From contig JABCZR010000003.1 of the NCBI GenBank assembly GCA_013289585.1, forward strand, positions 62,001-126,000: 64,000 nt of DNA, written 5' to 3'. Of the stretch, positions 58,055 through 62,054 are shown piece by piece. How positions within the stretch are numbered: the first letter of the stretch is position 1; every line of letters starts with the position of its first letter. A program made the translations under genes and the position numbers. Origin of the DNA: Acidobacteriota bacterium. Its GTDB lineage: Bacteria; Acidobacteriota; Terriglobia; Acidiferrales; UBA7541. The notes below the pieces were generated by a model. The model searched no databases and was not told the origin of the DNA. It saw only the letters and a program-made list of their open reading frames with translations.

Positions 58055-59509
58055 CTATTTGGGAGCCAGCGCGGTTGGCAAATTGCTCCGATGACGGCGC
58101 TTGCCCAGCTGGTATACAAGAACACCGACCGCATTCGCTCCCGCCACAATACATACCGTTTTCAAAGAATACAGCCAATGGCTCCGAACCTGAATGATCG
58201 GAAACGCCGAAAGAAGGACGAACAGCAGCGTCACCAAAAAACCGGAAGCCGCGGCCAGTCGCAGCCAGAGACCAGGCCGAAGGCCGCGGTCTCTGTGGGC
58301 CAGGAGGGGAATTGCAAACATCGCCAGATAGGAGAGGCCGTAGAATGTAAAACTCCAGGTCAGCAGAAGTTCGTAGGCTTCTTCCGCCCCGACTCCAATC
58401 AGGGCCACGACGGCGGCGGCAAACGCAACCGCTCCAACGAATAGAATCGAATTGACGGGCGTCTTGTATTTCTGATGAAGCCGAGTGAACCATTCCGGCA
58501 GCAGATGATCCCATCCGGCGACCATGGGAAGCCGCGTATTCGCCGTGAAATTGAGGCTGAAGCTGGAAAAATAATTCGCCAGCAACAACAGGATAACGAC
58601 GGGCACAATGAATTTTGCGATGCCAAAGGCCTCAGCGCCCCGGCTAAGGGCCTGCGGAATGGGGCCGATCACGTCGAGTGAATCGGGCGAGACGAAGGCA
58701 AGAATGGCGCTCGTCCCCAGAATGTAGAAAAGTGCGATGACTGGCGCGGCGATGCCGATGGACCTCGCGTAATTTCGTGCCGGATCGCGCGATTCCCCGG
58801 CGAAGATGGCCACATATTCGAGGCTGGTAAGCGCGCCAAAAGTCATTTTGCCGAAAACGCTGAGGCTGAAAAAAGTCAGCGGCGGTGCTACCAGACGCAA
58901 CGGATGATATTCCTGCAGCGCGCCACGCCAGAGCGCCACAACCGGCATGACAACCAAAACACTGAGTGTGGCCAGAATGCAAAGCGCACCGAAATTGGTT
59001 ACCCATTTGCCGACCCGAAGTCCGAGCCGGGCGATGAATATGAGGACGACCATGAAAACGGCCGAAGCGAACAAGATGAACATTCTATTCGACGCCATCC
59101 AGACCGCGCCGGCGCCCAGTACATAGGCCAGAAAAGTTGTGGCGATCAGCCCGATGACCGCTGTGTAAAGTGTCCCGAACAGCCAGAGATTCCATGCTAC
59201 GAGGAATCCGATACCATCATTGAACGCAAGGCGGGCCCATTCATAGAGTCCTCCTTCGAGCGGCATCAAGCGATTCAGATGCGCGACCAGAAGCGCCTGG
59301 GGAATGAAGAACAGGAGTATAGCCAGCAGCCACAGCACCACATGGGCCGGACCTGCTTTCACCGCCGTGCCAAAAAAATCCGGAACTACAACCGCGAGAA
59401 TTTGGGCCAGGATGAGGTCGCGGATGCCCAGCTCTTTTCGCAGTTCCGCACTTCGGGTTTGGATCGCCGCTCTGGCGGTTGCGAGCAGGCTGGAGTTTGC
59501 GGTGGACAA
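58055..59509 (-). CDS. APC family amino acid permease
   Basis: 484 residues with about 12 hydrophobic helices. The N-terminal cytoplasmic segment leads to LGIRDLILAQILAVVVPDFFG, and LMPLEGGLYEWARLAFNDGIGFLVAWNLWL contains the Gly-rich substrate motif of APC carriers. FTANTRLPMVAGWDHLLPEWFTRLHQKYKTP matches amino acid permeases of the AGT/ABT kind. It probably imports amino acids or amines; specificity unknown. Alone on its strand, with no obvious regulator. Confidence 0.9.
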   Translation of the reverse strand: MSTANSSLLATARAAIQTRSAELRKELGIRDLILAQILAVVVPDFFGTAVKAGPAHVVLWLLAILLFFIPQALLVAHLNRLMPLEGGLYEWARLAFNDGIGFLVAWNLWLFGTLYTAVIGLIATTFLAYVLGAGAVWMASNRMFILFASAVFMVVLIFIARLGLRVGKWVTNFGALCILATLSVLVVMPVVALWRGALQEYHPLRLVAPPLTFFSLSVFGKMTFGALTSLEYVAIFAGESRDPARNYARSIGIAAPVIALFYILGTSAILAFVSPDSLDVIGPIPQALSRGAEAFGIAKFIVPVVILLLLANYFSSFSLNFTANTRLPMVAGWDHLLPEWFTRLHQKYKTPVNSILFVGAVAFAAAVVALIGVGAEEAYELLLTWSFTFYGLSYLAMFAIPLLAHRDRGLRPGLWLRLAAASGFLVTLLFVLLSAFPIIQVRSHWLYSLKTVCIVAGANAVGVLVYQLGKRRHRSNLPTALAPK

Positions 59510-59694: not shown

Positions 59695-59979
59695 CTAGCA
59701 GCCGCCGGCGATTGAAGGAACGAGCAGGACGCGATCGCCTTCCTTCACGGAGCAAGACTCGCCACCGAGAAATCGGATGTCTTCCTCATTGAGATACACG
59801 TTGAGAAATTGGCGAATCTGTCCCTGTTCGTCGCGGACATGCCGCGAAAGGTCGGGAAAGCGCGTGGTGAGCTGATTCAGCGCTTCCGCAATCGTAGTGG
59901 CGCTACAGTCGATTTTCGGCGCGCCATTGGTGAAGCGGCGAAACGCAGTCGGAATTTCAACAGTGATTGGCATGTTCAT
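59695..59979 (-). CDS. MoaD/ThiS-like sulfur-carrier protein ending in Gly-Gly-Cys
   Basis: 94 residues of the ubiquitin-like beta-grasp fold. ITVEIPTAFRRFTNG and RQFLNVYLNEEDIRFLGGES recall mycobacterial CysO and actinobacterial relatives. The protein ends IAGGC; one Cys follows the Gly-Gly that family members adenylate and thiocarboxylate. Known relatives with extra C-terminal residues (for example QbsE) need a JAMM protease to expose Gly-Gly, and CysO-cysteine has the same GGC end. GAGAGG stands before the ATG, 8 bp after the threonine-synthase-like stop. It is predicted to deliver sulfur to that enzyme. Confidence 0.87.
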   Translation of the reverse strand: MNMPITVEIPTAFRRFTNGAPKIDCSATTIAEALNQLTTRFPDLSRHVRDEQGQIRQFLNVYLNEEDIRFLGGESCSVKEGDRVLLVPSIAGGC

Positions 59980-59987
59980 CGGTCCTC

Positions 59988-61244
59988 TCAGTTTCCTTTT
60001 CCTGCAGCGGCGGCAAACTGCTGATCGAGCAGCGCCTCGAAGGCTTCGAGCCGCGGAGCGATGGCTTCGGTAGCGGGGAATTCGGCGGCGATGGCGTCCG
60101 TGGTTTTCAGGCCATTGCCGGTAATGCAGACAACCGTGGTTTCACCGGCCTTGATGCGATTCTGGGTGATGAGTTTTTGCGTGACGCCAACGGTTACTCC
60201 GCCTGCGGTTTCCGTGAAGATACCTTCCGTCTCTGCGAGCAGCTTGATGGCGGAGACGATTTCAGGATCGGAAACATCTTCCGCCCAGCCGCCGGATTCG
60301 CGGATCAGCTTGATGGCGTAAGGACCGTCGGCGGGATTGCCGATGGCGAGCGAACGCGCGATGGTGTCGGGTTTTTGCGGTTCGAACCGCGAGAGGTTGC
60401 GCTTCACACCGTCGGAAATCGGCGAGCAGCCAGTGGCTTGCGCACCGAAAAACTTTACCGGCTTATCTTCGACCCAACCAAGGGTGACGAGTTCCTTAAA
60501 TGCCTTGGCGATCTTGCCGATCAGCGAGCCGCCCGCCATGGGCACAACCACATTGTCAGGCAGCTTCCAGCCAAGCTGCTCGGCGATTTCATACCCATGA
60601 GTCTTCGAGCCTTCGGAGTAATAGGGGCGCAAGTTGACGTTGACGAGGCCCCACTGGAAGCGGTCGGCGATTTGCGCGCACAATCGGTTGACCTGATCGT
60701 AGTTGCCGTTGATACGCACTATGCGAGCGCCGTAGACCGCGGTGTTGAGAACTTTGGCGGGCTCGAGGTCCGCGGGGATGAAGACGCAAGCGTCGAAGCC
60801 CTGTTGCGCGGCTTGCGCGGCGACGGCGTTGGCGAGATTGCCGGTAGAGGAGCAGCCGACGGTCTTGAAATCAAACCGGCGCGCGGCTGCGAGAGCTGTG
60901 GCGACGACGCGATCCTTGAAGGACAGAGAAGGGAAGCACACGGCGTCGTTTTTGAAATAGAGATTTTTCAGGCTCCAGCGGGAGGCGAGGTTGCGCGAAG
61001 CGACCAGAGGCGTGCCGCCGACGGCGTTCGGCCCGGCGAAACCTTCAGAGAGCGGCAGAAGCTCCGAGTAGCGCCACATATTGAAATCGCGGGAAGCCAG
61101 ATTTTCGCGGTGGACAATTTTTTTCAGGGAATCGTAGTCATAGCTGACTTCGAGAGGGGAGAAGCAATCTTCGCAGAACGAGCGCGGCGCGTTGCCCCAG
61201 GTTTTCCCGCATTCCCTACATCGGAGTTCGTAATGAACGGACAT
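59988..61244 (-). CDS. thrC: Threonine synthase-family PLP enzyme (possible homocysteine synthase)
   Basis: 418 residues of a fold-type II PLP enzyme. An N-terminal zinc ribbon (Cys9, Cys12, Cys24, Cys27) precedes the catalytic domain, with PLP Lys in PSLSFKDRVVATALAA, phosphate loop SSTGNLANAVAAQAA and VVPMAGGSLIGKI. Standard annotation would be threonine synthase acting on O-phosphohomoserine. Two context facts argue for another product: a SAM-II riboswitch lies upstream, and a MoaD/ThiS-like carrier gene follows. SAM control fits homocysteine or methionine synthesis, with protein thiocarboxylate replacing phosphate. I recall a related threonine-synthase-like enzyme with a ubiquitin-like carrier described in Streptomyces, but cannot verify that here. 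AAAGGTG precedes the ATG. Confidence 0.85.
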   Translation of the reverse strand: MSVHYELRCRECGKTWGNAPRSFCEDCFSPLEVSYDYDSLKKIVHRENLASRDFNMWRYSELLPLSEGFAGPNAVGGTPLVASRNLASRWSLKNLYFKNDAVCFPSLSFKDRVVATALAAARRFDFKTVGCSSTGNLANAVAAQAAQQGFDACVFIPADLEPAKVLNTAVYGARIVRINGNYDQVNRLCAQIADRFQWGLVNVNLRPYYSEGSKTHGYEIAEQLGWKLPDNVVVPMAGGSLIGKIAKAFKELVTLGWVEDKPVKFFGAQATGCSPISDGVKRNLSRFEPQKPDTIARSLAIGNPADGPYAIKLIRESGGWAEDVSDPEIVSAIKLLAETEGIFTETAGGVTVGVTQKLITQNRIKAGETTVVCITGNGLKTTDAIAAEFPATEAIAPRLEAFEALLDQQFAAAAGKGN

Positions 61245-61382
61245 TTTGAATCACCTTTCAGAGCGTGCGTGTAGCGAATAACGGCTTTCGAGCACCCTTG
61301 GCAGACCAGAACGAGCAACCCGGCGCTACAAGGCCGTGTCAATAGCGTGGAATTCGATTGGGGCAGCGCGGAGGTGCAAACG

Positions 61383-61413
61383 AAAAACCCTCCGTGCCAA
61401 AGTGCTCGGAGGG
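61383..61413 (-). terminator. Intrinsic terminator downstream of the SAM-II riboswitch
   Basis: On the minus strand CCCTCCG (61413-61407) pairs with CGGAGGG (61394-61388), followed by TTTTT. It lies between the riboswitch and the threonine-synthase-like gene with no minus-strand gene upstream to terminate, so it looks like a regulatory attenuator. A small CAGAA/TTCTG hairpin (61430-61417) lies between aptamer and terminator. Confidence 0.75.
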
Positions 61414-61443
61414 TCTCAGAAAATCTTCTGGGAAACTCGAAAA

Positions 61444-61492
61444 GCCCTTTAGCAGTTTTTTACGTGGAGCAAGTTGCCCTAAATCGCCACGT
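61444..61492 (-). ncRNA. SAM-II riboswitch (aptamer)
   Basis: The minus strand shows stem ACGTGG/CCACGT, the loop GATTTAGGGCAACTTGC, an A-run and CTGCTAAAGGGC. The loop segment TTTAG can pair with CTAAA to form the pseudoknot that defines SAM-II (SAM_alpha). The motifs GATTTA, CTTGC and GCTAAAG are the conserved core seen in alphaproteobacterial metA/metX leaders. SAM binding normally represses the downstream gene, which here is the threonine-synthase-like gene 200 nt away. Confidence 0.78.
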
Positions 61493-61536
61493 TTTTAAGT
61501 GTGACTTCCACACTCGCCGCAACGCCGGCTCCTTCT

Positions 61537-61565
61537 TTTATGCTTGAGCGCAGGGTGAAAGTCAA
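61537..61565 (-). promoter_or_regulatory. Promoter of the riboswitch-controlled transcript
   Basis: TTGACT (61565-61560), a 17-bp spacer and CATAAA (61542-61537) place a sigma-70 start near 61530, about 38 nt before the SAM-II stem. No minus-strand gene lies upstream, so this is the natural start of the operon. Confidence 0.5.
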
Positions 61566-61646: not shown

Positions 61647-62054
61647 ATGACCCGGCCGATGCTAAAATGCATCGCACCACTATTCATTGTCCGCGACGCT
61701 TCAGCCGCCGTCTCATTTTATCGCGACAAACTTGGCTTCGACATCACCCACCAGAATGCCGAATGGGCCACTGATCCCTTTTTTGCGATCGTTTGCCGCG
61801 ACGATGCGATGCTCATGGTCAAGAACGTCGGAGTGGACGCGGTGCCCAACTCCACACGCGGCGATCACTTTGCCCGGTGGGATGCTTACATCTGTGTGCC
61901 TGATCCTGATGCACTAGCTGCCGAGTTCACGTCGCGTGGTGTCATGTTTTCCGAACCGCTAAAGGACACCAGTGATGGCCTGCGTGGATTCGAGCTGAAA
62001 GATGCTGACGGCTATGTCTTATTTTTCGGTCGCCCTCGCGAAAATTCAAACTGA
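61647..62054 (+). CDS. VOC family protein (glyoxalase/bleomycin-resistance fold)
   Basis: 135 residues: two betaalphabetabetabeta modules. IAPLFIVRDASAAVSFYRDKLGFDITH opens the first and AYICVPDPDALAAEFTSRGVMF the second; FELKDADGYVLFFGRP is the typical C-terminal strand. Such proteins bind a metal or a hydrophobic ligand; substrates vary and cannot be told here. AGGAGG stands ahead of the ATG. It is divergent from the SAM-II leader, starting 82 bp from its promoter. Confidence 0.9.
   Translation: MTRPMLKCIAPLFIVRDASAAVSFYRDKLGFDITHQNAEWATDPFFAIVCRDDAMLMVKNVGVDAVPNSTRGDHFARWDAYICVPDPDALAAEFTSRGVMFSEPLKDTSDGLRGFELKDADGYVLFFGRPRENSN

Follow-up and report, generated by a model that had tools for sequence, protein, structure and literature searches.

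A SAM-II riboswitch precedes a metM-metO operon, probably for homocysteine synthesis, in an Acidobacteriota genome

We analysed a 64,000-nucleotide stretch from a soil bacterium of the Acidobacteriota (contig JABCZR010000003.1, forward-strand positions 62,001 to 126,000), referred to below as the window. Its minus strand carries a metM-metO operon under the control of a SAM-II (S-adenosylmethionine) riboswitch, and this operon very probably makes homocysteine for methionine. The metM-like gene (59988..61244) encodes a 418-residue fold-type II pyridoxal phosphate (PLP) enzyme, placed by Pfam and NCBIfam in the threonine synthase family, and is followed after 8 bp, on the same strand, by a metO-like gene (59695..59979) for a 94-residue ubiquitin-like sulfur carrier of the ThiS/MoaD/CysO type. 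The first-pass annotation of this DNA had described a unit of promoter, SAM-II aptamer, terminator, PLP gene and carrier gene 8 bp further on, and our analysis confirms it, with a promoter that is only weak. Its proposal that the pair forms homocysteine from O-phosphohomoserine and carrier-bound sulfur is supported as well. The evidence comes from the anatomy of the locus, its conservation and its regulatory context, from covariation between aptamer and terminator, from the missing acyltransferase and from further candidate genes in the genome for threonine synthase, JAMM and MoeZ-like proteins and methionine synthase.

The leader contains a SAM-II aptamer

The aptamer (61439..61493, minus strand) has a P1 helix (ACGTGG/CCACGT), the core segments GATTTA, TTGC and GCTAAA, and a pseudoknot. 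It scores 25.0 bits against RF00521 (gathering 36) and 25.2 bits against RF01726 (gathering 44), on the correct strand, and a scan of the whole window at the Rfam gathering thresholds listed a tRNA alone and no SAM-II. Because Rfam scores this aptamer below gathering, we built a test model, R2, from 21 aptamers that all lie outside the window's genus. R2 matched the window at 61493-61439 with 70.7 bits (E 1.5e-14, calibration rough), and its next-best match in the window was 10.2 bits. Two of the R2 source sites themselves exceed the RF00521 gathering score, L106 before metH (52.5 bits) and L044 before metM (36.3 bits), the latter being the only one of the SAM-II metM loci in one scanned batch to do so. 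The P1 helix, the two-part pseudoknot and the invariant core are common to the window aptamer and the relatives that pass gathering.

The SAM-II architecture of P1, P2a and P2b left 89.0% of 210 cells paired on the 21 R2 rows, compared with 27-45% when it was slid by 1-3 columns as a control, part of this gain being expected because the structure was derived from such sequences. On the same rows, 1 of 500 shuffles attained the covariation score and 6 of 500 the count of doubly changed cells; for the doubly changed pairs (n=2) it was 251 of 500. A first alignment, A2, gave weak support (covariation score matched by 26 of 500 shuffles), its base-pair counts being weak because the genus is nearly invariant. 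The model R1, which includes the window's genus, matched upstream of metM on the same strand, 113-309 nt away, in 31 of the 33 genus loci fetched (L016, L055-L082 and L149-L151 among those compared); one of the loci with an aptamer, L072, is cut by its contig end, and the two loci lacking a match, L075 and L083, each have less than 200 nt of upstream sequence. Among genus members outside these 33 loci, G274 has metM fragments only, and G268 and G280 gave no metM match. The upstream element is confirmed as a SAM-II riboswitch.

The aptamer tail covaries with the terminator apex

Between the aptamer and metM lies an intrinsic terminator (61383..61413, minus strand) with the stem CCCTCCG/CGGAGGG at 61413-61388 (CCCTCCGAGCACTTTGGCACGGAGGG), the apex CACTTT and a T run (TTTTT). 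It was spotted by inspection, and a similar terminator is present in 29 of the 30 genus loci examined. A promoter-like site, TTGACT-17-CATAAA (61537..61565, minus strand), agrees with the sigma-70 consensus at 9 of 12 positions and is plausible but weak. Consensus scans of the window for promoters and terminators returned nothing on the correct strand, the promoter going unflagged because it does not satisfy the scan's last-base rule and the terminator being missed because only loops of 3-8 were allowed.

The aptamer tail, AAAG, finds its complement in the apex CACTTT. We compared 29 distinct tail-terminator pairs, the window's included, after dropping 16 of 68 sites at which the script saw no terminator or no exact GCTAAA. 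In this set the tail AAAG tends to occur with the apex CTT, and AAAC with GTT. Tail and apex fit in 23 of the 29 pairs against a mean of 12.6, and the summed longest Watson-Crick runs came to 136 against 110; by either measure none of 10000 permutations was as high, with kinship uncorrected. Since the pattern was first noticed on metM loci, it was retested on the 16 pairs before non-metM genes alone, where 11 fit, with 6.4 expected (a level reached in 39 of 10000 permutations), and the Watson-Crick runs reached 77 against 63 (11 of 10000 as high). The corresponding fit for the 13 metM pairs was 12 against 6.2 (13 of 10000 as high).

When the leader was folded with a cut before the 3' arm of the terminator, AAG.GCTT..GAG paired with CTC..GAGC.CTT. 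Because the aptamer tail sits in the SAM-bound pseudoknot, the tail-apex pairing is most readily interpreted as an antiterminator that forms in the absence of SAM. We infer the direction of switching as follows. At low SAM, the 3' tail AAAGGGC would pair with the terminator apex and polymerase would read through; with SAM bound, the tail would be locked in the pseudoknot, the terminator would fold and the operon would be off. The accessible text of PMC9373788 describes the effects of SAM-II on gene expression as unstudied before that work, and the tail-terminator covariation provides a testable model for SAM-II-driven transcription termination.

MetM stands apart from canonical threonine synthases

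The metM product matches Pfam PALP (223.9 bits) and the NCBIfam thrC model TIGR00260 (273.8 bits, cut-off 167.1), carries an N-terminal four-cysteine motif (C9, C12, C24, C27) and has threonine synthases as its closest solved structures by sequence. TIGR00260 does not discriminate metM, however, because each of the 18 metM genomes tested has matches over the cut-off, several in most; at least two thrC-family members, metM counted, are over the cut-off in 16 of the 18. In a 60-row tree (one short row omitted; L003 a long branch), a long branch with support 88/87 separates the metM family from canonical threonine synthases, and the window MetM clusters with relatives from Nonomuraea and cyanobacteria in a tree that does not contain the Streptomyces albulus sequence. 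Carrier-bearing and carrier-free loci do not fall on two clean sides of this tree.

Of 99 Acidobacteriota loci, 98 carry the motif N[VI]NLR..[YF].EG[SA]K; the one without it is L159, in whose predicted frame it is missing. In these 98 loci a Tyr (the pattern permits Phe) replaces the Arg of the threonine synthase motif, with an extra Arg three residues earlier; in the window MetM, Tyr209 and Arg206 stand in place of the Arg of P-x-R-x-EG. All five threonine synthases that were read have PYR at this position, and we take this Arg (Arg160 in Thermus) to contact the substrate phosphate. Outside Acidobacteriota the motif Leu can be replaced by Ile, Met or Phe; with the pattern used, no motif could be read in three rows. 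The metM product is most likely an O-phosphohomoserine-dependent homocysteine synthase, though models name it threonine synthase.

A genome-wide scan returned 588 related loci. The best 80 of these, by record title, come from Acidobacteria, Nitrospinota, Desulfobacterota, Omnitrophota, KSB1, Neomarinimicrobiota, Planctomycetota, Cyanobacteria, Armatimonadetes, Verrucomicrobia, Nitrospira and Kiritimatiellae. In Nonomuraea, a SAM-I riboswitch precedes a MetM that is 53.9% identical to the window's and a carrier that ends AVAGG. One MetM subgroup (L124-L127, L129-L148), 45-52% identical to the window's, has no carrier match nearby; in four of the genomes concerned, MetX or MetA occurs as well.

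MetO has a drifting tail behind Gly-Gly

The metO product matches the ThiS family with 46.1 bits and ends in PSIAGGC, a single Cys behind IAGG. Its best PDB matches are 4n6e_B, a ThiS/MoaD family protein (65.5 bits), and 3dwg_C of Mycobacterium tuberculosis (64.6 bits), which we take to be CysO. A same-strand carrier match was found in 69 of 99 Acidobacteriota metM loci and in 71 of the best 80 of the 588 related loci, up to 1.6 kb off.

To the first-pass annotation the Gly-Gly-Cys carrier looked new in this phylum; among the relatives, however, this end is not fixed. Beside metM, the residues behind IAGG may be none, C, CV, CC, SL, SF, AI, TI, SE, SGS, SEL, SSL, SQCS or longer, and in the genus the residues after Gly-Gly vary without constraint, numbering anything from none to at least four, even among members whose MetM is ~90% identical to the window's. 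Such free drift at a site that must be a bare Gly-Gly for the chemistry to work suggests that the tail is cut off. Precedents for such tail removal are QbsE/QbsD and HcyS/HcyD. In some other phyla the carrier runs on into a NIL domain, as in L185 (ThiS 5-91, NIL 100-163; Pfam), and a carrier extended in this way would also need a cut. The carriers of L195, L200, L205 and L216 have a C-terminal extension that resembles that of L185 by eye. In L235, a separate NIL protein lies between metM and CysM- and JAMM-like open reading frames with the carrier, and the row from a Nitrospira metagenome-assembled genome reads SAM-I (1 kb upstream), metM, NIL, CysM and JAMM (both by eye) and then the carrier.

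Methionine, threonine and cysteine genes of the source genome

The source genome (4.73 Mb, 97% complete) contains three thrC-family proteins over the cut-off, the window MetM and two further threonine synthases, C20 (433 residues, TIGR00260 292.7 bits) and C3 (397 residues, PRK08197 580.3 bits, cut-off 303). The first-pass annotation had called for a search for a second, canonical thrC, and these two proteins answer it. It had also asked whether the usual methionine genes are lacking. No credible acyltransferase turned up, but PLP enzymes of Cys/Met metabolism are not wholly missing, two strong Cys_Met_Meta_PP proteins without assigned substrates being present. MetA is absent from the genome, and there is no credible MetX, the matches peaking at 140.7 bits compared with 346-460 bits for the top four genomes in a set of 61. 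That top match (C17) was rejected as a hydrolase with a signal-peptide-like start, read as exported; a second MetX-like match (C1, 96 bits) is partial. A methionine synthase candidate is present as an open frame of 1219 residues. No riboswitch reached gathering in the eight stretches scanned around the methionine synthase candidates, the further threonine synthase loci and the remaining Cys/Met loci.

The helpers required by a thiocarboxylate route are also present, in a cluster on C16 (L085 3244-6247) that encodes a CysM-like protein, a JAMM protease, a CysO-like carrier with the tail RS and a MoeZ-like ThiF-rhodanese protein. The JAMM protein is the sole Prok-JAB match in the genome, and the CysO-like carrier shares 45% identity with the window's. 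MetO probably relies on the proteins of this cluster as well.

metM and the acyltransferases avoid each other

In a phylum set of 247 genomes, metM (at least 390 bits) is found in 58 plus 2 fragmentary cases, MetX (E 1e-70) in 56 and MetA in 20. Six genomes have both metM and an acyltransferase, 54 metM only, 70 an acyltransferase only and 117 neither, an avoidance with a Fisher p of 4e-5, kinship uncorrected. The best-sampled family shows the same pattern, with 20 of its 25 genomes having metM, 4 MetX, 1 neither and none both. When full-length metM genomes are divided by the presence of a carrier at the locus, an acyltransferase occurs in 2 of the 31 with a carrier (Fisher p 0.001) and in 4 of the 27 without.

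SAM riboswitches precede metM in many lineages

SAM-II, detected with R1, occurs in 30 of the 247 phylum genomes. The gene after the best site is metM in 5, a methionine synthase or homocysteine methyltransferase in 14 (576 nt downstream in L110 and L113), a sulfhydrylase or cystathionine-synthase type in 9, an aspartate kinase in 1 and no recognised gene in 1 (G091, the weakest); these types were read from translations, and NCBIfam scans of ten agree. The genome with SAM-II before an aspartate kinase gene (L091 469-1404) also has SAM-II upstream of metM.

An Rfam scan at gathering covered 76 metM locus entries, which represent 73 different loci (L208 and L210 occur twice; L171 is L022). SAM-I lies upstream of metM on the same strand in 36 of the 73, in 34 of these about 43-280 nt from the match start and in L185 and L235 at 1.0-2.2 kb, and SAM_alpha precedes metM in one (L044). 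SAM riboswitches thus precede metM-carrier pairs both within and outside the phylum, in line with the search that the earlier annotation had proposed for SAM-II before such pairs. The sister family f2 has SAM-I in all 19 fetched loci (L017-L035), so that, set against the SAM-II of the window's genus, orthologous metM-metO operons in one class differ in their class of SAM riboswitch, a clean natural case of the replacement of an RNA regulator.

Six loci carry two successive SAM-II aptamers before metM. Each aptamer has its own terminator in L042 (1201-1380), L043 (1185-1358) and L121 (1746-1940); in L159 (1714-1890) and L211 (2726-2902) a terminator was found after the first aptamer only; and in L044 (3602-3799) the pair lies 865-1006 nt upstream of metM. 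In the tree, f2 and the window's own genus are MetM neighbours (100/98), and the clade with tandem SAM-II lies elsewhere (100/98). Because this clade sits apart from the genus, SAM-II seems to have been gained or retained more than once. Tandem SAM-II is already known as a class, with 44 cases in the accessible text of PMC9481103.

Comparison with known systems

The CysM/CysO/Mec/MoeZ system of M. tuberculosis, as commonly described, shares the CysO-type carrier, the fold-type II PLP partner and the JAMM and MoeZ-like proteins in the genome, but the window enzyme is threonine-synthase-like and not CysM-like, and its regulation points to methionine. In Wolinella succinogenes, a protein thiocarboxylate reportedly serves as sulfur donor for methionine through HcyS, HcyD, HcyF and MetY, with a residue past Gly-Gly of HcyS that is said to be removed by a JAMM protein. 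The carrier residue past Gly-Gly is shared with the window; MetY, however, reportedly is a fold-type I enzyme that acts on O-acetylhomoserine, in contrast to the PALP enzyme of fold-type II found here.

The closest precedent is MetM/MetO of Streptomyces, an analogue that the first-pass annotation had suspected. According to the available portion of PMC12172450, Hasebe et al. 2024 (doi 10.1128/aem.01247-24) identified MetM as a Streptomyces homocysteine synthase with homologues in cyanobacteria, metO is mentioned, and a SAM riboswitch lies upstream of metM in S. albulus. The window therefore shares the threonine-synthase-like enzyme, the carrier gene and the upstream SAM riboswitch with that species, as far as this source describes it. 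Nonomuraea, our actinobacterial proxy, has the same gene order with SAM-I, and from it the window differs in having SAM-II, a carrier residue past Gly-Gly and a place in Acidobacteriota. The system is a variant of MetM/MetO, and neither the core idea nor control by SAM is new, because S. albulus metM already has such a riboswitch upstream (PMC12172450, available portion); the earlier view of riboswitch control as novel needs correction on this point. What is newer is SAM-II in this lineage, the exchange of SAM-I and SAM-II, the covariation between tail and terminator, the drift of the carrier tails and the wide spread of the family. Among the papers listed by searches of the open-licence literature, none dealt with MetM/MetO in Acidobacteriota or with a SAM-II riboswitch in front of metM. 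In Alphaproteobacteria, SAM-II precedes metA and metZ, and the metZ riboswitch is predicted to terminate transcription, as stated in the accessible text of PMC9373788. By comparison, the window aptamer lies below the Rfam gathering score, controls metM and has a tail-apex pairing backed by covariation.

Proposed route and alternatives

We infer the substrate, the sulfur donor and the product, together with tail clipping and the sharing of the CysO machinery, in a route of the following form. The JAMM protease of the C16 cluster would clip MetO behind Gly-Gly, and the MoeZ-like adenylyltransferase-rhodanese of the same cluster would charge it to the thiocarboxylate. MetM would bind O-phosphohomoserine on PLP, expel phosphate and take up sulfur from the carrier at the gamma carbon; hydrolysis of the resulting adduct of carrier and homocysteine would follow, and methionine synthase would finish the route. 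A wider proposal seems to us evenly balanced. It holds that O-phosphohomoserine and carrier sulfur supply a major methionine route across bacterial phyla that is hidden under the name of threonine synthase, that sulfur for Cys and Met travels on two parallel ubiquitin-like carriers, CysO and MetO, with one MoeZ and one tail-clipping JAMM between them, and that the operon has swapped SAM-I for SAM-II or the reverse with its gene still under control. If the homocysteine reading is right, many of the 588 related "threonine synthase" loci would be homocysteine synthases, and genomes now counted as methionine auxotrophs because they lack MetA or MetX could be prototrophs.

Several observations weigh against a role of the operon in homocysteine synthesis. 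The genome is 97% complete, and an absence may therefore be a gap. Its two strong Cys_Met_Meta_PP proteins (C1, C2) fall below every cut-off among the families listed, and seven further matches are weak (26-39 bits); a plant-type O-phosphohomoserine cystathionine synthase is a possible identity among these proteins. An acyltransferase also occurs in 6 of the 60 metM genomes of the phylum set, and in the set of 61 relatives metM occurs with MetA in three genomes (G247, G249, G278) and with a MetX of 346.6 bits in G301, one of four relatives with MetX above 340 bits. Because 117 of the 247 genomes have neither, lack of an acyltransferase does not by itself indicate metM. Thirty of the 99 Acidobacteriota metM loci have no carrier match, some being cut by contig ends, which leaves room for a carrier that acts from farther away or for a different function. 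Ten cyanobacterial metM loci were scanned and gave no SAM riboswitch at gathering. Finally, the accessible part of PMC12172450 reports that the Microcystis carrier-adjacent ThrC, probably of the same family as the window MetM, both makes threonine (Km 4.4 uM) and deaminates it in vitro and that its host showed no rise in methionine, its authors doubting a full MetM role.

We weighed three alternatives. Methionine could be made mainly by another route, by trans-sulfuration from O-phosphohomoserine through a Cys_Met_Meta_PP enzyme or by uptake, with metM-metO as an auxiliary; the two strong family members lack a firm assignment, and an amino-acid permease gene (58055-59509, same strand) lies downstream of metO. 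We consider this unlikely, as neither Cys_Met_Meta_PP gene has a riboswitch at gathering in the stretches scanned, the only SAM-II that the genome yielded under the threshold and filters applied is that of metM, and the C2 protein is closest to cystathionine gamma-lyase/homocysteine desulfhydrase, an enzyme of the reverse direction. It is less probable still that the gene encodes a threonine synthase, or a synthase/deaminase, which happens to stand beside a CysO-like carrier while SAM balances the O-phosphohomoserine branch point. The score over the TIGR00260 cut-off, the closest solved structures and the threonine formed in vitro by the Microcystis relative (PMC12172450, accessible part) would fit such an enzyme; the two other threonine synthases in the genome, the recurrence of at least two thrC-family members in 16 of 18 metM genomes, the long branch (88/87) with Tyr for Arg, and SAM-II before metM as before other methionine genes, with SAM-I in other lineages, do not.

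The Microcystis aeruginosa locus bears on both sides. It resembles the window's in a PLP gene beside a MetO-like carrier gene, in a second threonine synthase and in expression lowered by methionine, and differs in having no riboswitch according to its authors, who favour a threonine synthase/deaminase. In the accessible text of PMC12172450, thrC and its carrier neighbour are induced by threonine, and methionine brings thrC back again; we read this behaviour as that expected of a methionine gene. Least probable of all is that the pair makes another sulfur product, such as cysteine from O-phosphoserine, as a second CysM/CysO. The window carrier's identity to the CysO-like protein and the presence of CysO among its closest PDB matches speak for this; the genome, however, has a separate CysM-JAMM-CysO-MoeZ cluster, the window enzyme is in the threonine synthase family and not CysM, and control by SAM points to methionine.

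Neighbouring gene and an RNA in a relative

Upstream of the metM unit, a divergent gene for a protein of the glyoxalase/bleomycin-resistance fold occupies 61647-62054. In the downstream flank of metM in one relative, L080 (1156-1201), an Acido-Lenti-1 RNA (RF01687) matches with 51.3 bits.

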